Program-made: the position numbers and the translations under genes | In this document: positions 19,381 to 27,833 of the stretch, piece after piece | Layout: each line of letters starts with the position of its first letter | Position numbering within the stretch: position 1 is the first letter of the stretch | Notes under the pieces: model-generated | Database searches by the model: none | Seen by the model: the letters and a program-made list of their open reading frames with translations, nothing else | What the model was told of the DNA's origin: nothing | Assembly (NCBI RefSeq): GCF_001187915.1 | Contig: NZ_LGIU01000016.1 | Span: forward strand, 1 to 33,450 | Reading direction: 5' to 3' | Source: Arthrobacter sp. RIT-PI-e | GTDB lineage: Bacteria; Actinomycetota; Actinomycetes; Actinomycetales; Micrococcaceae | Length of the DNA stretch: 33,450 bases

Positions 19381-19636
19381 TCGCACTCTGGCGCCAGAGC
19401 TCCATGACGGCTGCCGCGGTGACCACGAACGAGAGCACGACGAGGGCCAGCATCACGTACAGCAGCACCAGCGTGGTCAAGGGGGACGCCGCACCGTGCA
19501 GGACCTGGAGGCCGCCGAGCAACCCGACCACCCAGAAGAGCGCCACCGCGGCGAGCGCATAGCCCGCCCGCCTGCGTCCACGATCGAGACCCATGAGGCG
19601 GGCGAACCGCTCGAGGACGCCCTGCCACTGATTCAT
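19364..19636 (-). CDS. Small two-helix membrane protein
   Basis: 90 residues: a basic cytoplasmic start ('RFARLMGLDRGRRRAG'), TM1 about 26-46 ('ALAAVALFWVVGLLGGL'), TM2 about 52-78 ('TTLVLLYVMLALVVLSFVVT'), and a basic tail ending in five Arg. Both ends are predicted to be inside. The start is ATG 19636. No family is recognised and no partner gene is obvious; it is convergent with catalase and lies downstream of the short-chain dehydrogenase on the same strand, 109 bases away. Confidence 0.72.
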   Translation of the reverse strand: MNQWQGVLERFARLMGLDRGRRRAGYALAAVALFWVVGLLGGLQVLHGAASPLTTLVLLYVMLALVVLSFVVTAAAVMELWRQSARRRRR

Positions 19637-19745
19637 AGGACCATCATCCGCGCACGGAGGTCCGCAGCGGGCGGGCGCCGCCTATCGTGTCCCTCACACG
19701 GACGGCCCGGAGCCGATCCCATGATGGGCACGCCGCGGATCAGCG

Positions 19746-20645
19746 TCACCGGGTACGCCGGAAGCGCCCGAGCACACGCCACCCACCGGTGACCCCCGTG
19801 CGCTCCCGATCGGCGTCGAAGAGGTTGCCCGAGGATGCGGGTACGGAACCGCGGCGCACCGCGATCATGCTGTACACGCGGACCACCATCGGCTCGTACA
19901 CGGCCGGCGCAAGGGCCCGGACGAGGACGAACAGGGACTGCACGCGCCCCACCTGCACCAGCCGCCGTGGCCGGTGGGCCACCTCGACGACGGCGCGCGC
20001 GACGCGGACGGGGTCCACGACCGGCGGCAGAGGGCGGACGGGCTGCCCCGCGTAGTTGGCCGCATGCTGGTGGATGGGCGTGTCCACAGTGGCGGGCAGC
20101 ACGGCGCACACGTCGATCCCGGGAGTGTCCCTCAGCTCGAGCCGGAGCACCTCGAGGAAACCGAGCAGGCCGAACTTGCTGGTCACGTAGGGGCTCACGA
20201 AGGGCGAGGTGATCCTGGAGTACACCGAGGCCACGGAGACCAGGACGCCGTGACCCTGGTCCCGGAAGACCCGCAGCGCCGCACGGGCCCCGTACACCTG
20301 GCCCCGCAGGTTCACGTCGATGATCCGGTCGAAGGCCTCCGACGGCGTCTGCTCGAAGGTACCGAAGCTGTACAGGGAGGCATTGCCCACCCAGACGTCG
20401 ATCCCCCCGAACCGTTGCACGGCGGCATCGGCGAGCCGCTCCACCTCCTGCTCGACCGCCACGTCGGTGGGCACGGTCACCACCGCTGCACCACGGTCGC
20501 GGCACTCGGTGGCTACCGCGTCCAGTGTGCCTGCATCCCGCCCTGCGAGGACCAGGTGCGCGCCCTCCTCCGCGAACAGGCGGGCAGCGGCCCGTCCGAT
20601 GCCGCTCGCCGCACCCGTGATCACCACGGTGATCGCTCCACTCAT
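19746..20645 (-). CDS. Short-chain dehydrogenase/reductase (classical SDR)
   Basis: 299 residues. The cofactor motif is 'TGAASGIG' (10-17). Other parts are 'GNAS' (in place of NNAG) near 87-90, catalytic N112, S140 ('VSVASVYS'), Y153 and K157 ('SPYVTSKFGL'). The C-terminal part after about 190 includes 'LPPVVDPVRVARAVVEVAHR' and a hydrophobic stretch, as in SDRs that act on lipid-like or unknown substrates. The start is ATG 20645 with GGAGGG eight bases upstream; the longer frame to 20702 has no such site. It is an NAD(P)-dependent oxidoreductase; the substrate is unknown. The 230 bases upstream, before the next gene on the same strand, contain only that gene's terminator as a recognisable element. 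Confidence 0.92.
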   Translation of the reverse strand: MSGAITVVITGAASGIGRAAARLFAEEGAHLVLAGRDAGTLDAVATECRDRGAAVVTVPTDVAVEQEVERLADAAVQRFGGIDVWVGNASLYSFGTFEQTPSEAFDRIIDVNLRGQVYGARAALRVFRDQGHGVLVSVASVYSRITSPFVSPYVTSKFGLLGFLEVLRLELRDTPGIDVCAVLPATVDTPIHQHAANYAGQPVRPLPPVVDPVRVARAVVEVAHRPRRLVQVGRVQSLFVLVRALAPAVYEPMVVRVYSMIAVRRGSVPASSGNLFDADRERTGVTGGWRVLGRFRRTR

Positions 20646-20825
20646 CGTCCCGACCCTCCGTCGCGCCCCGATCGCCCGGGTACCTTCCGAGTCTCGGTGC
20701 ACCCGGCCCCGCTTGTCACCTGTTCCCTGGAATCAGTTGCGGGACCCGGCGATGCTGTTCTTTGCCGCGTACGTGTGCTTGCCCCCACCGTAGGTCCGAA
20801 CGACGGAGCCGTCACCCGGACATGA

Positions 20826-20859
20826 AGGAGGGAGCCCACCTGACCGCGGGCTCCCTCCT
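20826..20859 (-). terminator. Terminator of the 63-codon gene
   Basis: A perfect 12-base-pair inverted repeat (20826-20837 with 20848-20859) with a 10-base loop, 18 bases past the stop codon on the minus strand. Confidence 0.72.
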
Positions 20860-20877
20860 GAGATCGAGGGTCCTGCG

Positions 20878-21069
20878 TCAGTTGCCGAAGCCTCCGAAGC
20901 CGGGGAGCTTGCCCAGCAGGTCCTTGGGGTTGATGCCGAACTTCGCGAGGAGGTCCGAGTGCTGCTCCGGGTCCACCTGGTCGGGCAGCTGGGACCGGGC
21001 GTCGTCCGCGGAATCGTTCTTGCCCTGGGACTTCAGGAGGTCGATGATCTGCGACTTGTCGATGTTCAT
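20878..21069 (-). CDS. Small conserved actinobacterial protein (63 residues)
   Basis: It starts MNIDKSQIIDLLKSQGKN and continues 'LPDQVDPEQHSDLLAKFGIN' and 'PKDLLGKLPGFGGFGN'. The pattern of a short helix, a 'LPDxVD' segment and a Gly/Phe-rich tail is one I recall from small conserved actinobacterial proteins of unknown function. GAGGAAG lies well placed before ATG 21069. It has its own terminator and a palindromic element upstream. No membrane segment or Cys. Confidence 0.82.
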   Translation of the reverse strand: MNIDKSQIIDLLKSQGKNDSADDARSQLPDQVDPEQHSDLLAKFGINPKDLLGKLPGFGGFGN

Positions 21070-21095
21070 GTGCTTCCTCTTCCATGCTCGGGCGA

Positions 21096-21110
21096 AGTAG
21101 TAAGCCTACT
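21096..21110 (-). promoter_or_regulatory. Palindrome with -10-like box before the 63-codon gene
   Basis: AGTAG-N5-CTACT (21096-21110) contains, on the minus strand, GTAGGCT, the same -10-like string seen before the acidic gene at 14467. It lies about 27 bases before the start codon. Confidence 0.38.
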
Positions 21111-21164
21111 GATCACAGGGTGGCACATGCCGCCCGGTGTTGTCACGGGCCGGAGAATGGGGGC

Positions 21165-21668
21165 ATGCCGCTCACGCTGACCATCCTCGCCGACACCCAC
21201 CTCCCCCGACGCGCCAAGGGACTGCCCGCGGAGGTGTGGGCGGCGGTGGAGGCCGCCGACGTCGTCCTCCACGCCGGTGACTGGGTGGAGGAGGCCCTCC
21301 TCGACGAGCTCTCGGCACGGTCCTCACGCCTGATCGCGTGCTACGGGAACAACGACGGCGCCGGGCTGCGGGCGCGCCTGCCCCTCGTGGCCCGGGCCGA
21401 GCTCGGCGGCCTGCGCTTCGCCGTGGTGCACGAGACGGGGCAGAAGCAAGGCCGCGAGGCGCGTATGGCGGCCCTCCACCCCGACGTGGACGTGCTGGTC
21501 TTCGGGCACAGCCACATCCCGTGGGACACGCGGGCGGAGAACGGCCTCCGTCTCCTCAACCCGGGCTCCTCCACGGACCGCCGTCGCCAACCGCACTGCA
21601 CCTACATGACGGGCGTCGTCGACGCCGGGGTCCTCGACGTGGAGCTCCACCGGCTGCCACCACGGTGA
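21165..21668 (+). CDS. Metallophosphoesterase, YfcE/MJ0936 type
   Basis: 167 residues. The metal-binding motifs of the calcineurin-like phosphoesterase fold appear in order: 'DTHLP' (about 10-14), 'HAGDWVEEA' (about 36-44), 'YGNNDG' (about 60-65), 'VVHETGQ' and 'FGHSHIPW'. The length and compact motif spacing fit the YfcE-like group, which cleaves phosphodiesters in vitro; the natural substrate is unknown. The start is ATG 21165 after CGGAG; the frame upstream to 21084 lacks a ribosome site. Confidence 0.92.
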   Translation: MPLTLTILADTHLPRRAKGLPAEVWAAVEAADVVLHAGDWVEEALLDELSARSSRLIACYGNNDGAGLRARLPLVARAELGGLRFAVVHETGQKQGREARMAALHPDVDVLVFGHSHIPWDTRAENGLRLLNPGSSTDRRRQPHCTYMTGVVDAGVLDVELHRLPPR

Positions 21669-21825
21669 CGGCCTCCGTGCTGCCGCTGACGTTCCCCTCC
21701 CCCGCACTCCGTCGGTGCACACCTCGTCCGGTCCGAGCCGGTTCTCCACCCGTGATCGCCCACGAGGGACGAGGCGGGTGGGGCCGCTGCGGCCGGAGCC
21801 GCTGCGGACCCGCCCGCGGAGGGGC

Positions 21826-23016
21826 TCAGCCCTTCACGCAGAGGATGGTGCGCAGGTGCTGCACCACGGACACCAGGTCCGACTGCGCCGCGATCACCGC
21901 GTCCAGGTCCTTGTAGGCGCCGGGGATCTCGTCCACGATCCCGGCGTCCTTCCGGGACTCCACCCCTCGGGTCTGCTCGATCAGGTCCTCCACGCTGTAG
22001 GTGGCCCTTGCCCGGTTGCGGCTCATCCTCCGTCCGGCACCGTGGGACGCGGACCGGAACGACGCCGGGTTGCCGAGACCGCGCACGATGTACGAGCCGG
22101 TGCCCATGGACCCGGGGAGCAGGCCGAGGTCACCGGATCCCGCGCGGATCGCGCCCTTGCGGGTCACGAGCATCGCACGCCCGTCGATCTCCTCCTCCGC
22201 CACGTAGTTGTGGTGGCAGGAGATGGCGCTGTCGAAGCCGACGTCGGCCCCGGGCACGGCCGCCCGCACCGCGTCCTTGAACAGCTCCATCATGATCTCG
22301 CGCGAGCGCAGCGCGAACTCCTGGGCCCACTCGAGATCCCTGCGGTACGCGGCCATCTCGGGCGAGCCCTTCAGGAAGACGGCGAGATCCGGATCCGGCA
22401 GGTCCCGGTTCTGCGGCAGCTTCTTGGCGATGGAGATGTGCCGTTCCGCCAGCTCCTTGCCGATGTTGCGGGATCCGGAGTGCAGCGCCAGCCACACGCG
22501 GTCCTCGGCGTCGAGGGTGACCTCGAGGAAGTGGTTGCCCCCGCCGAGGGACCCGAGCTGCGAGTGTGCGCGCTGCTCGAGCTTCTGGACCCCGGGGTGC
22601 AGGTCCTTGAACCTCGACCAGAACACGTCGAGACCCTTCGTCAGGTCGAACGGCCGCAGGTCCAGCCACTCCTCATGCCCCCGGAACCCCACCGGGATGG
22701 CCGCCTCGACGGCCAGGCGCAGGGGTCTGAGGTCCTCGGGCAGGTCCGCGGCCGTCAGCGAGGTGCGGACGGCCGAGACACCGCACCCGATGTCCACGCC
22801 TACCGCGGACGGGGAGATCGCGCTCTCCATGGCGATGACCGATCCCACCGTGGCTCCCTTGCCCAGGTGGACGTCCGGCATCACCCGTACACCGTGGACG
22901 TACTCGAGAGCCGCGATGTTGCGGAGCTGCTGGAGTGCCGCCGGTTCGACGTCGTGCTCCGCGGTCCACATCAGCGTGGACGCCCGGGCCCCGCTCAGTG
23001 CGACGGGAAGTTCCAT
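21826..23016 (-). CDS. rtcB: RtcB-family RNA ligase (3'-phosphate/2',3'-cyclic phosphate splicing type)
   Basis: 396 residues from ATG 23016. It joins RNA 3'-phosphate or cyclic phosphate ends to 5'-OH ends using GTP and Mn. Residues visible: 'MPDVHLGKGATVGSVI', D75 and C78 in 'GVDIGCGVSAV', H162 in 'SLGGGNHFLEV', H179 in 'LHSGSRNIG', HH268-269 in 'SCHHNYV', 'GSMGTGSYIV' and the guanylate-accepting H325 in 'SASHGAGRRMSR'. The catalytic set is complete, so it should be active. GGAGG lies seven bases before ATG 23016. GTG 23049, in frame and with its own GGAGGG, would add 11 residues. No archease, RtcA or RtcR gene is nearby. A long structured leader precedes it. Confidence 0.95.
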   Translation of the reverse strand: MELPVALSGARASTLMWTAEHDVEPAALQQLRNIAALEYVHGVRVMPDVHLGKGATVGSVIAMESAISPSAVGVDIGCGVSAVRTSLTAADLPEDLRPLRLAVEAAIPVGFRGHEEWLDLRPFDLTKGLDVFWSRFKDLHPGVQKLEQRAHSQLGSLGGGNHFLEVTLDAEDRVWLALHSGSRNIGKELAERHISIAKKLPQNRDLPDPDLAVFLKGSPEMAAYRRDLEWAQEFALRSREIMMELFKDAVRAAVPGADVGFDSAISCHHNYVAEEEIDGRAMLVTRKGAIRAGSGDLGLLPGSMGTGSYIVRGLGNPASFRSASHGAGRRMSRNRARATYSVEDLIEQTRGVESRKDAGIVDEIPGAYKDLDAVIAAQSDLVSVVQHLRTILCVKG

Positions 23017-23048
23017 GGCATTGCCTCCTTCAAGGCTGGTATCAATCA

Positions 23049-23085
23049 CAGGAATTCCCTCCGATCGACGGCGGATGAATTCCTG
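23049..23085 (-). promoter_or_regulatory. Leader hairpin enclosing the upstream rtcB ribosome site
   Basis: CAGGAATTC pairs with GAATTCCTG (9 base pairs), with an inner TCCG/CGGA stem. The structure contains the GGAGGG that serves the GTG 23049 start and ends at that codon. It may limit initiation from the longer start. This is a prediction from pairing only. Confidence 0.45.
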
Positions 23086-23130
23086 CAGGTCCGGACAATG
23101 AATGATCGGACGAATTCGAGCGCGCCGACG

Positions 23131-23146
23131 GACCCGCGAACGGGTC
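23131..23146 (-). other. Small hairpin with UUCG loop in the rtcB leader
   Basis: On the minus strand GACCCG-UUCG-CGGGUC, a perfect 6-base-pair stem with a UUCG loop, lies between the upstream terminator and the rtcB start region. It is a candidate stability or processing element. The other bases from 23086 to 23255 show no convincing gene. Confidence 0.4.
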
Positions 23147-23255
23147 GCCGGAATATGAATGGGTACGTCGGGGAGATGGTCATGGGAAATCGCGCGGATA
23201 TGATCGGGGATATGCCGCTCGATCGCATCCGCGCCTGTCGTTTGAGGCAGAGAAA

Positions 23256-23292
23256 AGGCCACCTCGGGGGCTGGACTTACCCGAAGTGGCCT
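23256..23292 (-). terminator. Intrinsic terminator of the 47-codon unit
   Basis: On the minus strand a 13-base-pair stem with one U-G pair (23292-23280 with 23268-23256), an 11-base loop, then UUUCUCU. This is the most classical rho-independent terminator in the window, and it works for transcripts on the minus strand, 19 bases after the stop codon of the 47-codon ORF. Confidence 0.82.
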
Positions 23293-23311
23293 GGATTCCC
23301 CTGCTCTGCAG

Positions 23312-23455
23312 TCAGGATCCGGTTCTTCGATGCCAGGTCGGCTCGTCCTGCTGGTAGCAGGGCTTGTTCAGGTCTTGGAGCAGAGCCAGCGACTCGAGGG
23401 CAGGCAGGAAGGAGCGACTCGTGGCCGTAGCGTCGAGCATCGACGATGCGCTCAT
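23312..23455 (-). CDS. Unrecognised 47-residue protein in its own transcription unit
   Basis: ATG 23455 is preceded by GGAGGGG (23464-23458). The product starts MSASSMLDATATSRSFLPAL, continues 'ESLALLQDLNKPCYQQDEP' and ends 'TWHRRTGS'. It has one Cys, one Trp and a Ser/Thr/Ala-rich start, with no membrane segment. A promoter-like TTTACA-N18-TAAAGT lies upstream and a U-tract terminator downstream, so every part of a gene is present. Base composition is less GC-rich than the neighbours. I recognise no family. It could be a regulatory or leader peptide of rtcB, a modified-peptide precursor or a free microprotein. A 93-codon ORF in another frame covers the same bases but begins upstream of the promoter and has no ribosome site. 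Confidence 0.6.
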   Translation of the reverse strand: MSASSMLDATATSRSFLPALESLALLQDLNKPCYQQDEPTWHRRTGS

Positions 23456-23462
23456 TTCCCCT

Positions 23463-23494
23463 CCTGGGCGTGAATAGTCCTGGGCATGAATTGT
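23463..23494 (-). repeat. 16-base tandem repeat over the 47-codon ORF ribosome site
   Basis: Two head-to-tail copies (23463-23478 and 23479-23494) share 14 of 16 bases: CCTGGGCGTGAATAGT and CCTGGGCATGAATTGT on the plus strand. A weaker third copy may follow (23495-23510). The copy nearest the ORF supplies part of the ribosome site. Confidence 0.7.
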
Positions 23495-23495
23495 C

Positions 23496-23551
23496 GCGGC
23501 ATGATTCGTGCCGCTGGATAGACTTTAGAACCGGTGCCGGCGATTTGTAAA
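23496..23551 (-). promoter_or_regulatory. Promoter of the 47-codon unit with start-proximal hairpin
   Basis: Minus strand: TTTACA (23551-23546), an 18-base spacer and TAAAGT (23527-23522). The transcript would begin near 23515 with a GCGGCA/TGCCGC hairpin (23514-23496). It is the most sigma-70-like promoter in this AT-richer stretch. Confidence 0.55.
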
Positions 23552-23653
23552 GCCGCACCCTCGAATTACCCCGGAGAACTCGCGCGCGGTATTGCCATTC
23601 GTGCCTCTGTCGAGGACAACGCGTACGCTCGATCTGATGATCGAGGAAATGTC

Positions 23654-23710
23654 ATGAGCATCGAAGAACTGCGGCGGTCCGTCGCAGGAGGAAGGGGCGT
23701 GATCGCATGA
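23654..23710 (+). CDS. 18-codon upstream ORF overlapping the PH-like gene
   Basis: GAGGAAA is followed by ATG 23654, giving MSIEELRRSVAGGRGVIA. Its stop codon overlaps the next ATG (ATGA at 23707-23710). A GGAGGAAGGGG ribosome site for the downstream gene lies inside it. It may be a translationally coupled leader peptide or chance. Confidence 0.35.
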   Translation: MSIEELRRSVAGGRGVIA

Positions 23711-24186
23711 GTACACAGCAGGGAGCATCGGGCGCGGAGTTCCACGCGCGTATGCCGCGCCGGTACAGGGTGGGCCTGCTGTCCATCGGGGTCGTGGCAG
23801 TGGCGGTGGCGGTCCTGCCGCTCGCGCTCGGCGACGTCGGGCCCCTGGGTCTCGGTGTCGCGGCCGTGACGGCGGGGACGTTCCTCCTCTGCCTCCGGAT
23901 GCGGGCGGTGGTGCGGCTGGGCACGGAGGAGCTGAGCATCAGGGTGGCCGGTGTCTTCTCGACGTCCATCCCCTACCGCACGATCACGGGGACGGCTCCG
24001 GACGCGGACACCGGCTTCGTCCAGGGGATGGGGCTCCGGAAACTGCCGCACCGCACCACGGGGTACCTGGTGGGCGGGCCCACCGTCCGCATCGGCACCG
24101 GAGAGACCGCTGTGCTCGTCTCGACGGAGGCCCCGGAGGAACTGTCGAGGGCGATCGAGGAACGCCGGGTGCCCTTCAGCGGCTGA
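23707..24186 (+). CDS. PH-like (bacterial PH domain) membrane protein
   Basis: 159 residues: two adjacent hydrophobic segments (about 21-41 'VGLLSIGVVAVAVAVLPLAL' and 46-64), then a mostly beta C-terminal part with 'VRLGTEELSIRVAGVFSTSI' and 'VRIGTGETAVLVSTEAPEEL', which looks like a small bacterial PH domain. The charged linker 'IPYRTITGTAPD' is common in this family. The start is ATG 23707 with GGAGGAAGG just before it. The function is unknown; such proteins are often envelope-associated. A long-loop hairpin after the stop could terminate it. Confidence 0.75.
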   Translation: MSTQQGASGAEFHARMPRRYRVGLLSIGVVAVAVAVLPLALGDVGPLGLGVAAVTAGTFLLCLRMRAVVRLGTEELSIRVAGVFSTSIPYRTITGTAPDADTGFVQGMGLRKLPHRTTGYLVGGPTVRIGTGETAVLVSTEAPEELSRAIEERRVPFSG

Positions 24187-24192
24187 GCCGCC

Positions 24193-24232
24193 CCGGGAGG
24201 GACGACGCCGGTGGACGGGACGACCCTCCCGG
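24193..24232 (+). terminator. Possible terminator of the PH-like gene
   Basis: CCGGGAGGG pairs with CCCTCCCGG (9 base pairs) over a 22-base loop, directly after the stop codon. The loop is long, so the call is tentative. Confidence 0.4.
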
Positions 24233-24263
24233 CCGGCGGAGCCTGCACGGAAGGGTCGACGTG

Positions 24264-24337
24264 AGCCCCCTGTCGGATTCGAACCGACGACCCCCGCTTT
24301 ACAAGAGCGGTGCTCTGGCCAACTGAGCTAAGGAGGC
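24264..24337 (-). tRNA. tRNA-Thr (anticodon TGT)
   Basis: On the minus strand a full cloverleaf is present: acceptor GCCTCCT pairing with AGGGGGC (one G-T pair), D-arm 'TTAGCTCAGTTGG', and anticodon stem CCGCT/AGCGG around the loop CTTGTAA, giving anticodon TGT (reads ACA, threonine). The T-arm has the invariant GGTTCGAATCC. The 3' CCA is not encoded. The total is 74 bases including the discriminator T. Confidence 0.97.
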
Positions 24338-24448
24338 GTGCCGGGCCACCCCGGCGAGCGCCGTCGTCGTCCCGTATCGGATGATTCGTGCTGTACGGAA
24401 TGACGAGAACGACACCAAGGGTAGCCCAGCGCCGGCGGGGCCGGGTAA

Positions 24449-25309
24449 TCAGCTGCGCGCGTCGAGTGCCGTCTGCACCGTGGTGGCGAAGTCGGAGACG
24501 CCGTTCGCGACCATGGTCCCGTCCACGTACACCGTGGGGGTGCCGCCGACGGAGGCCGCCTGCGCCGCCTCCGTCGTGTACTTGACGAACGGACGGAAGG
24601 TGCCCTCCTCCACGCAGGAGGAGATGTCCCCGGCTCCGGACCGGTCGGCGAGCTCGATCAGGCCGGCGTCGTCGAGCTCGCCCTGCTCGAAGTGGGCGAA
24701 CAGGCCCTGGGTGAAGTCGAAGTAGCTCTGCGGAGCGGAGTCGGCCACGCACGCCGCCGCGTTCGCGCCGCGGGAGGAGTACGCGGTGCTGCTGTTGCGG
24801 TCCAGGTAGGCGACCGTGCGGTACTCGAAGGTGATCTCGCCGTCGTCGAGCCAGGAGCGGATCTGGTCGGCGTACCGTGCCTCGAAGTCCGCGCAGTGCA
24901 CGCAGTTGACGTCCACGTACGCGACCACCTGCAGCGGCCCGTCCGGGGAGGAGTCGATCCCGTCCGGGATCTCCCCCGCGGGTGCGGGCTCCTCGGGCAG
25001 ATCCGCGGTGTCCACGTCACCGGTCCGCGCAGGAGCCAGCTCGGTCCCGGACACCAGGGTGATACCGCCCTGGGCGTTGCCCGCCTGCGGTGCCGGCCCG
25101 GCGTCGGCGACCTGACCGCGCGCATTGCCCACCACCACGGCCACGATGACAGCGACGATCACCAGCGCCGCGAGGACCACCCCGCCCTTGGCCAGGAGAC
25201 CGTTCCTGCGCTCCTTGCGCCGCTGTTGCTCCTGCATCAGCCGGGCTCGTTCCCGGGCCTCCGCGGTGCGTTCGGCTTTGGTCGGCTTGCGTGCGGGTGT
25301 GGGCGCCAT
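24449..25309 (-). CDS. Membrane-anchored DsbA-like thiol-disulfide oxidoreductase
   Basis: 286 residues: a highly charged cytoplasmic N-terminus (1-38), one membrane helix (about 41-61), a Pro/Ala/Gly-rich linker, then a thioredoxin_4/DsbA-like domain with the active-site C136-V-H-C139 ('DVNCVHCADFE') and the cis-Pro loop 'GGTPTVYVDG'. Two more Cys ('AAACVADS' and 'SSCVEEG') probably form a structural disulfide. It is expected to face the outside and to oxidise or isomerise exported proteins. The start is ATG 25309 with AGAGGAC upstream. The frame extends on to 25714, but that part is antisense to otsA. Confidence 0.92.
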   Translation of the reverse strand: MAPTPARKPTKAERTAEARERARLMQEQQRRKERRNGLLAKGGVVLAALVIVAVIVAVVVGNARGQVADAGPAPQAGNAQGGITLVSGTELAPARTGDVDTADLPEEPAPAGEIPDGIDSSPDGPLQVVAYVDVNCVHCADFEARYADQIRSWLDDGEITFEYRTVAYLDRNSSTAYSSRGANAAACVADSAPQSYFDFTQGLFAHFEQGELDDAGLIELADRSGAGDISSCVEEGTFRPFVKYTTEAAQAASVGGTPTVYVDGTMVANGVSDFATTVQTALDARS

Positions 25310-25436
25310 CAGTCCTCTTCGTCGGCTTTTCGGTGCGACCAGTTTAGCGATCCCGGCTACGAGCTTCCTGGGTGGCCTGCGCAGGTCCCGGAGGGAAGGC
25401 GAACCGATAGAGTCGGCAGGGAGACCACCTACTGCG

Positions 25437-26936
25437 ATGGAGCCAGTTTTGAGCGCAGCACAACCTTCCACCACACCCGGCGTCACTCCCCCCTCCGCCG
25501 TCGACGGCCAGTACGGGGACTTCGATTTCATCGTCGTCTCCAACCGCCTGGCGGTGGACCGCGTGGTCGACGGCGACGGGGAGAGTTCGTGGCGACGCTC
25601 ACCCGGAGGCCTGGTGACCGCGCTCGCCCCGGTCATGGCGAAGGCCGACGGCGCATGGGTGGGCTGGCACGGCGCACCGGACGAGACGCTCGAGGCATTC
25701 GACGAGGCCAACATGCACCTCGTCCCGGTGCCGCTCAGCGCGGAGGAGGTGGAGCTGTACTACGAGGGGTTCTCCAACACCACGCTCTGGCCGCTCTACC
25801 ACGACGTCATCGCCTCGCCGGAGTTCCACCGCACCTGGTGGGACTCCTACCGGCGGGTCAACGAGCGCTTCGCGACGGCGACGGCATCCGTGGCCGCCGA
25901 GGGCGCCACGGTCTGGGTGCAGGACTACCAGCTGCAGCTGGTGCCCAAGCTGCTCCGGGAGCTGCGGCCGGATCTCCGGATCGGCTTCTTCAACCACATC
26001 CCGTTCCCGCCCCTGGAGATCTACGCGCAGCTCCCCTGGCGCCGTCAGGTCATCGAGGGGCTCCTCGGCGCGGATCTCATCGGGTTCCAGCGACCCAGCG
26101 ACGCCAGCAACTTCCTCCGCTGCGTGCGCCGCTTCAAGGGGTACACGATCAAGGCGCAGCAGGTCCAGGTCCCGGCGTCGGAGGACGGCGTCCCCGCCTA
26201 CGTGTCCCGCGCGGAGGCGTTCCCCATCTCGATCGACACCGCCTCCATCGCGGAGCTCGCGCAGCGACCGGAGGTGATCGCGCGGTCCGAGGAGATCCGG
26301 CGCGAGCTCGGGGATCCGCAGCACATCCTCCTCGGCGTCGACCGCCTCGACTACACGAAGGGCATCGGCCACCGGCTGAAGGCCTACGGTGAGCTCCTCG
26401 AGGACGGCGCCATCACGGTGGAGGACGCCGCGCTGATCCAGGTGGCGAGTCCCAGCAGGGAACGTGTGGAGCAGTACCGGCTCCTGCGCGAGGACATCGA
26501 GGGTGCCGTGGGGCGCATCAACGGCACGCACGACACCATGAAGAACACGGCCGTCCGCTACCTCCACCACAGCTACCCCGTGGAGGAGATGGTGGCCCTC
26601 TACCTCGCAGCCGACGTCATGCTCGTCACGGCACTGCGCGACGGCATGAACCTCGTGGCGAAGGAGTACGTCGCAGCACGGATCGGCAACACGGGCACCC
26701 TGGTGCTCAGCGAGTTCGCCGGGGCCGCGGACACGCTCCGTCAGGCGATCCTGGTCAACCCCCACGACATCGACGGGTTGAAGAGCTCCATCGTCCAGGC
26801 GATCGAGATGCCGAAGGCCGAGGAGACACGGCGCATGCGGCTCATGCGGCGCCAGGTGGTGCAGAACGACGTCGAGCGGTGGTCCCGGACCTTCCTGGAC
26901 GCCCTGCACGCGGGAAGTTCCGAGCATGACTCCTGA
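25437..26936 (+). CDS. otsA: Trehalose-6-phosphate synthase
   Basis: About 499 residues of a GT20 glycosyltransferase that makes trehalose 6-phosphate from UDP-glucose (or a related donor) and glucose 6-phosphate. Conserved parts: '[12 protein letters not shown]', '[11 protein letters not shown]', 'WVGWHG', '[17 protein letters not shown]', '[13 protein letters not shown]', '[19 protein letters not shown]', '[12 protein letters not shown]', '[20 protein letters not shown]' and '[10 protein letters not shown]'. Start choice: ATG 25437 has no well-placed ribosome site, while TTG 25449 has GGAG six bases upstream and may be the true start. It overlaps otsB by 11 bases. Together they form the OtsAB route to trehalose, used as osmo- and stress-protectant. 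Confidence 0.96.
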
Positions 26937-27702
26937 ACCTGACCTGCAGGCTGCACTGGAGAGCGTCGCAGGGACGCCGCACCTCCTGGTGGCACTGGAC
27001 TTCGACGGAACTCTCGCCCCGCTGGTGGGCCGGGCGGAGGATGCCCGCGCCCTCCCCGCGTCCGCCGCCGCCGTCCGTGCACTCGCCGGACTCCCCGGGA
27101 CCACCACGGGCCTCGTCTCCGGGCGCGCCCTGGACAGTCTGCGCCTGGTTGCCGATCCCGCACCGGAGACGCTCCTGATCGGCAGCCACGGCGCCGAGAC
27201 CTGGCTGGGCCCCGACGCCGCACCCCTCGAACTCACCGAGCCGCAGGCCGCCCTGCTCGCACGCGCCGTCGCCGTCGTCGAGGACACCGCCGCCGCCCAT
27301 CCCGGCACCCGGGTCGAGTACAAGCCCGCCGGCGTCGTCCTCCACACCCGCACGGCCGACGACGACGTGGCCGCGGACGCGGTCGCCGCGACGAGATCGG
27401 GGCTCGCCCCACTCCACGGACTGAGCATCAGCGAGGGCAAGCGGAACCTGGAGGTCTCCGTGATCCACGCGGACAAGGGGCAGGGGCTCGCCCTGCTGCG
27501 GGAGGCCACCGGTGCCACCGCGGTGTTCTTCGCGGGCGACGACGTCACGGACGAGAACGCACTGCGCACCCTGGGCACCGGTGACGTCGGCGTCCGGATC
27601 GGTGCCGGCCACACCGCCGCACGCTTCCTGGTCGGCACCCCGGAGGACTTCGCCGACGTGCTGACGGAGCTCGCCCGGTTGCGCGAGGATGCGCTCCGCT
27701 GA
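26926..27702 (+). CDS. otsB: Trehalose-6-phosphate phosphatase
   Basis: 258 residues of the HAD superfamily. The nucleophile motif is 'ALDFDGTLAPL' (D25 and D27), motif II is 'TGLVSGRALD', and later come 'GSHGAETW', the conserved lysine in 'HADKGQGLALLRE' and motif IV 'FFAGDDVTDENAL'. It removes phosphate from trehalose 6-phosphate. ATG 26926 lies inside the end of otsA (11-base overlap), so translation is coupled. Its length is normal for the family and the catalytic set is complete. Confidence 0.96.
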   Translation: MTPEPDLQAALESVAGTPHLLVALDFDGTLAPLVGRAEDARALPASAAAVRALAGLPGTTTGLVSGRALDSLRLVADPAPETLLIGSHGAETWLGPDAAPLELTEPQAALLARAVAVVEDTAAAHPGTRVEYKPAGVVLHTRTADDDVAADAVAATRSGLAPLHGLSISEGKRNLEVSVIHADKGQGLALLREATGATAVFFAGDDVTDENALRTLGTGDVGVRIGAGHTAARFLVGTPEDFADVLTELARLREDALR

Positions 27703-27748: not shown

Positions 27749-27777
27749 CTGACCACCACGCCCCACAACTGAATATC
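27749..27777 (+). promoter_or_regulatory. Weak candidate promoter before the ABC ATPase gene
   Basis: CTGACC (27749-27754), a 17-base spacer and AATATC (27772-27777), 57 bases upstream of the ATG. The string ACTACGGATC occurs twice nearby (about 27715 and 27787). Tentative. Confidence 0.3.
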
Positions 27778-27833
27778 TTCCATTCACTACGGATCGTCGG
27801 GCACGTACCTGCCCGTGAAAAGGAACAAGAACC

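Follow-up and report, generated by a model that had tools for sequence, protein, structure and literature searches.

The rtcB gene in the analysed stretch of DNA (33,450 nucleotides, referred to as the window) is preceded by a 5' leader that probably acts as a translation-dependent transcription attenuator. The parts of such an attenuator are present in the window, and they recur in front of the same rtcB clade in other genomes. This reading is based on the occurrence of the same anatomy in other lineages and on a complementarity between the leader end and the terminator arm in the genomes of group g45. The antiterminator is a prediction from RNA folding; which signal would induce the switch, and in which direction it would work, is proposed by analogy with the PA5471.1-armZ system of Pseudomonas aeruginosa. 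The initial annotation had offered two explanations for the short transcription unit, a leader or attenuator of rtcB and an independent microprotein. The former gained from the recurrence and from the g45 complementarity, while the latter lost ground for lack of homologues and because purifying selection on the analogous peptides was weak or absent.

Parts of the leader unit

The features of the unit are compiled in the table. All signals that had been read directly from the sequence in the initial annotation were found again: the promoter-like site was recovered by a consensus scan, the hairpin at the likely transcript start was present in the predicted fold, the ribosome-binding site, start codon, stop codon and length of the ORF were correct to the base, and the 13-bp stem with its U-tract, which starts 19 bases past the leader stop codon, appeared in the folds.

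Features of the leader unit and of rtcB in the window
Feature	Position	Strand	Basis
Promoter-like site TTTACA-18-TAAAGT	23522..23551	-	Sequence and consensus scan
6-bp hairpin GCGGCA-N7-TGCCGC near likely transcript start	23496..23514	-	Sequence and predicted fold
Ribosome-binding site GGAGGGG of leader ORF	23458..23464	-	Sequence
Leader ORF, ATG 23455, TGA ending 23312, 47 codons and stop	23312..23455	-	Sequence, one near-identical database protein, analogous ORFs in the same position in g45 and elsewhere
Predicted antiterminator 5' arm (final leader-ORF codons)	23315..23330	-	RNAfold without terminator 3' arm
Predicted antiterminator 3' arm, overlapping terminator 5' arm	23281..23302	-	RNAfold
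Intrinsic terminator, 13-bp stem (23292-23256), 11-nt loop, then TTTCTCT	23249..23292	-	Folds
rtcB, RNA ligase, proposed regulated gene	21826..23016	-	Pfam RtcB, RtcB sequence blocks, relatives

The promoter scan of positions 21500 to 24500 gave two sites, TTTACA-18-TAAAGT among them, compared to a mean of 0.2 in shuffled sequences. Across both strands of the 33 kb, no hairpin but the stem at 23292-23256 had -20 kcal/mol or below and was followed by TTTT (mean of 0.27 in a control of 30 shuffles, one strand each). It is omitted by the standard terminator scan, because the loop limit of that scan is 8 and the loop has 11 nt. The predicted fold of the leader RNA (23530-23240) had a z-score of -2.33, and 2 of 200 shuffled sequences folded equally well. 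The leader ORF taken alone means little, as 71 ORFs of at least 30 amino acids overlap the region from 19500 to 27500. Two features of an attenuator were found together: a short ORF with a ribosome site, predicted to be translatable, precedes rtcB in the same orientation, and an intrinsic terminator is located between this ORF and rtcB. At the gathering score of Rfam 15 the leader was unmatched, and the whole window gave only one tRNA and one msiK match. The msiK RNA motif, which belongs to a known cis-regulatory family, is located at 27771-27830 on the plus strand.

A minor observation concerns the leader end. Positions 23322-23333 and 23658-23669 form a perfect 12-nt inverted repeat: GCATCGAAGAAC from the end of the leader has a second copy on the plus strand, within a possible 18-codon ORF (23653-23709) with a stop codon overlapping the start of the neighbour gene (23707). 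The repeat may be due to chance.

The rtcB clade and its leaders in other genomes

The product of the downstream gene matched Pfam RtcB with an E-value of 5e-116. The best start codon, at 23016 behind AAGGAGG, lies about 230 nt past the terminator; the 478-aa ORF in the rtcB frame extends over the leader region because no in-frame stop codon interrupts it. The RtcB sequence blocks, which we take to be the catalytic blocks, are intact and align with those of solved RtcB. Matches to rtcB were present in 24 of 38 genomes of the genus, including that of the window, and the other RtcB proteins of the genus were 44-49% identical to the window's over the full length (51% in the best partial alignment). 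The window's clade was not recovered from the other 37 genomes of the genus that were searched. Judged by these identities, the window rtcB is different from the rtcB usual in its genus. Besides the window's genome, 12 of the 395 family genomes had the clade (63-71% identity), and among the best 80 of 556 relatives it was also present in named Kribbella, Nocardia, Amycolatopsis, Micromonospora and others. Five genomes of the genus retain a relative of the neighbour gene at 23707-24186. As neither a tRNA nor any of the other neighbours tested was present at these five loci (flanks of about 1.5 kb or less), the empty-site synteny comparison was uninformative.

The clade was carried by 6 of the 18 g45 genomes. 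In all six, rtcB is preceded at the same place by a promoter-like sequence, a ribosome site, an approximately 50-codon leader ORF and a terminator; the sequences of L130 and L131 are nearly identical. The g45 leader ORF ends with [HY]RLL[PL]A plus four residues, and the terminator has the form GGGAGTCGATGAAC..GTTCATTGGCTCCC (with variants), its T-run lying about 110 nt ahead of rtcB. When the six sequences were aligned as DNA, the ORF end and the terminator proved conserved and the ORF body variable, without an indel inside the ORF. Of the 12 family genomes with the clade besides the window's, the other six (L125-L129 and L133, among them the one with the closest RtcB at 71% identity) showed no such leader.

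Own versions of the unit were present in Antrihabitans cavernicola (L070; 28 codons, terminator of -27.5) and in Micromonospora mirobrigensis (L112; 42 codons, terminator of -24.6). In family f23 the clade was carried by 52 of 121 genomes, and L142 plus 29 further loci were examined. The L112 peptide type was common to L142, L164, L171, L174, L176 and L177, and more loosely to L167; we infer that f23 is the family of Micromonospora, because the named locus L112 has this leader too. In L164 and L171 the hairpins, with their poor U-tracts, were missed by the terminator scan. Six loci had ORFs of 10-13 codons and no terminator by the scan, five of them of the type ..LAKPA..RG or close to it, and others had different ORFs. 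The analogous units in Antrihabitans, Micromonospora and part of f23 carry unrelated peptides.

The loci were also scanned with one rule: a short open frame holding an ORF of 12-80 codons behind a ribosome site, and a terminator of -15 kcal/mol or below before the gene. This rule matched 21 of 159 rtcB loci, including the window, versus 16 of 372 starts of other genes in the loci (Fisher 4e-4); five of the 21 matches (L107, L145, L148, L149, L155) are unchecked and may be due to chance. Within the window's family 7 of 13 loci of this rtcB clade matched (Fisher 1.4e-6), as did 8 of 31 loci from f23 plus L112 (Fisher 1.5e-4). Because the loci are related, all these Fisher values overstate the significance and serve as guides only. 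Scan matches in Nocardia, in Amycolatopsis and for the genus's own rtcB were few and weak. In genus g128 (L144-L154) a conserved stretch around GACAATGTGTATCGCACGC was present upstream of rtcB, and most of these loci had a leader of another kind with no clear leader ORF and terminator.

Homologues of the leader peptide and selection

In line with the initial annotation, which recognised no family for the peptide, Pfam and NCBIfam gave no match. The search across the family recovered the peptide in its own genome and yielded no convincing homologue in 395 family genomes. Altogether, searches of 57 genomes, of 395 from the family and of 396 from the order (overlapping samples, the larger groups being drawn subsets) gave only weak, chance-level matches beyond its own genome. 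These matches, with E-values of 7e-4 to 0.1 in single genomes, were rejected because many genomes had been searched; four (L002, L003, L004, L117) were inspected in full and two (L005, L137) were judged on the E-value alone. One near-identical protein, of the same length and with one residue changed, was present in a set of 5.8 billion proteins, and it is encoded on two contigs, neither longer than 1566 bases. The leader DNA was not found in the 37 other genus genomes, where three matches of 22-38 bases (E 0.002-0.01) were taken as chance, and a search of a plasmid collection gave no match. Since it was found in its own genome and in one near-identical database protein, the peptide sequence is, as judged from this distribution, young or fast-changing. 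A homology to other leaders by way of shared KPC and HR motifs was too weak to claim, and a WhiB-like cysteine motif was dropped as it had no family match.

Pooled pN/pS ratios were 0.56 for the g45 leaders (0.74 with L136), 1.04-1.10 for the Micromonospora-type leaders and 0.85 for the 13-codon set. The leader peptides are therefore under weak or no purifying selection on their residues, which is expected if translation matters and the product does not. Outside g45 these ratios give no positive proof of translation; in g45 the reading frame is free of indels. The leader peptide probably has no task once it has been made.

Pairing of the leader end with the terminator

In all five distinct g45 sequences, nine bases of the leader end can form standard pairs with the terminator's 5' arm. 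Four cells of this alignment were changed, all on one side and with standard pairs kept, and compensatory changes amounted to zero. In the window, folding with RNAfold of the hairpin alone paired UCGAAG..CC.GGAU.CC of the final ORF codons with the terminator 5' arm. This predicted antiterminator hairpin had an energy of -18.4 kcal/mol versus -13.3 +/- 2.75 in shuffled sequences, 48 of 1000 of which were equally good. A longer nascent segment kept the antiterminator, but its energy was no better than that of shuffles (-22.9 versus -21.3; 280 of 1000 equally good), and the terminator outcompeted it at -41.1 once its 3' arm existed. In a duplex test 4 of 18 leaders reached p < 0.05 (window, p 0.094), so that the duplex statistics gave no general support for the pairing across the 18 leaders. 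As the pairing statistics were mostly insignificant, the window antiterminator is regarded as plausible and not as proven. Its 5' arm overlaps CGA AGA, both rare codons, which follow a further rare codon, CAT; the g45 arm also begins with CAT or TAT followed by CGA.

Proposed mechanism and alternatives

According to the proposed mechanism, RNA polymerase would start at about 23515, transcribe the leader ORF and meet the terminator at 23292-23249. A ribosome reaching the leader stop codon would cover the final codons, i.e., the 5' arm of the antiterminator, so that the terminator would form and rtcB would be off. If the ribosome stalled or slowed upstream of the final codons, because of a translation inhibitor or of damaged or scarce tRNA, the end of the ORF would be free to pair with the 5' arm of the terminator, and transcription would continue into rtcB. 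The RtcB product would then reseal broken RNA.

The leader might instead sense whether particular tRNAs are charged or intact, for instance at the codons TGG CAT CGA AGA. The three consecutive rare codons CAT CGA AGA (3.2, 4.5 and 3.9 per 1000, calculated from 22 GC3-rich frames, some of which are perhaps not genes), the similar opening of the g45 arm and the Arg-rich ends of several other leaders would fit such charge sensing. However, the leaders contain no run of a single codon like biosynthetic leaders, their codons vary between lineages, and rare codons within the pairing arm may only slow ribosomes; we therefore consider the reading of particular tRNAs unlikely. It is also improbable that the hairpin merely ends a short unit which is just a neighbour of an rtcB gene with its own promoter. 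The gap of about 230 nt would offer room for such a promoter, and rtcB could be driven alone by one that differs from the scanned consensus, as actinobacterial promoters often do. But no promoter-like site at the scan threshold was present on the minus strand between the terminator and rtcB, as TTTACA-18-TAAAGT was the sole minus-strand site of the scan of 21500-24500, and the combination of ORF and terminator recurs before rtcB in other lineages.

That the unit encodes an independent microprotein with a function of its own is very unlikely, even though its gene signals are complete and a database protein of the same length differs from it by one residue. This single near-identical entry stands against the lack of a convincing homologue in the sampled genus, family or order; moreover, no family in Pfam or NCBIfam matched, and elsewhere the slot before rtcB is filled by unrelated peptides.

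Comparison with known systems

The closest counterpart of the proposed attenuator is armZ of P. aeruginosa, which is listed as an RtcB-like ligase and lies behind the leader peptide PA5471.1 (PMC12057347, PMC13041342). In the model given there, full translation of PA5471.1 leads to the terminator, and armZ is opened when ribosomes stall or the CCA-adding enzyme is lost (PMC12057347, PMC13041342). As in the window, a short leader ORF and a terminator precede an RtcB-like gene. The phylum is different, however, and the leader appears to be so as well; also, ArmZ is an anti-repressor of MexZ, whereas the window gene encodes an RtcB with intact sequence blocks. Leader-peptide control of an anti-repressor is said to appear unique to MexXY (PMC12057347).

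In actinobacteria, WhiB7/WblC is described as being controlled by uORF-mediated transcription attenuation that is induced by translation-targeting antibiotics (PMC7157823). This resembles the proposal for the window in kind and in phylum, but the controlled gene there is a transcription factor. The uORF toiL of the E. coli toiL-topAI system senses several kinds of ribosome stalling, similar to what is proposed here, but it acts by occlusion of a ribosome site and Rho, not by an intrinsic terminator (PMC12121999).

In the literature found, bacterial rtcB is induced through protein regulators: damaged tRNA acts through RtcR (PMC7790460), and translation stress relieves repression by TrcR (PMC10272220). 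Because RtcR and TrcR control rtcB by such signals, tRNA damage or translation stress would be a reasonable signal for the window attenuator as well. Both regulators are DNA-binding proteins, unlike the cis-acting leader ORF proposed here. No actinobacterial rtcB leader attenuator was found in a literature search with most subscription papers and all preprints outside its range. This kind of control is known; what appears to be new is the gene, the phylum and the fact that the arrangement recurs with unrelated peptides. With a leader ORF that reads the progress of ribosomes, the ligase would be coupled directly to the defect that it repairs and no sensor protein would be needed; such a leader would also show that the mode of control of armZ has a counterpart in another phylum. 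Such a short cis element also bears on the question of which signal calls RtcB into action in actinobacteria.

tRNA genes near rtcB

A same-strand tRNA gene within 450 nt upstream of rtcB was present in 7 of 10 Kribbella-type loci (a group that takes in one Streptomyces record) and in 8 of the 31 f23-plus-L112 loci, versus 1 of 75 other loci and none of 42 in the remaining groups. In seven loci (L142, L164, L171, L174, L175, L176, L182) the tRNA is located between the leader ORF and rtcB; no tRNA lies between the leader and rtcB in the window. It is conceivable, with chances we put a little below even, that some actinobacteria possess fast-evolving leader-ORF attenuators of rtcB which have more than one origin and gauge translation directly, and which in some lineages also release the intervening tRNA genes. 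If true, this would amount to a translation-gated emergency kit of replacement tRNAs and ligase in some lineages.

The tRNA genes just before rtcB are single or paired in the seven loci named above and in L184 and L141, and in these nine loci they specify Gly, Glu, Arg, Pro, Cys and Gln. In the Kribbella-type loci (L037-L040, L042-L045, L050, L051) rtcB is embedded in tRNA clusters, for which 7-13 genes per locus were predicted, and tRNA genes also follow downstream of rtcB in 8 of 10; these clusters are possibly units of spare tRNAs plus ligase. At L125, L126 and L127, where ARAGORN gave no tRNA, T-arm-like pieces GGGTTCGA..CCC were observed upstream of rtcB (in L127 by eye only).
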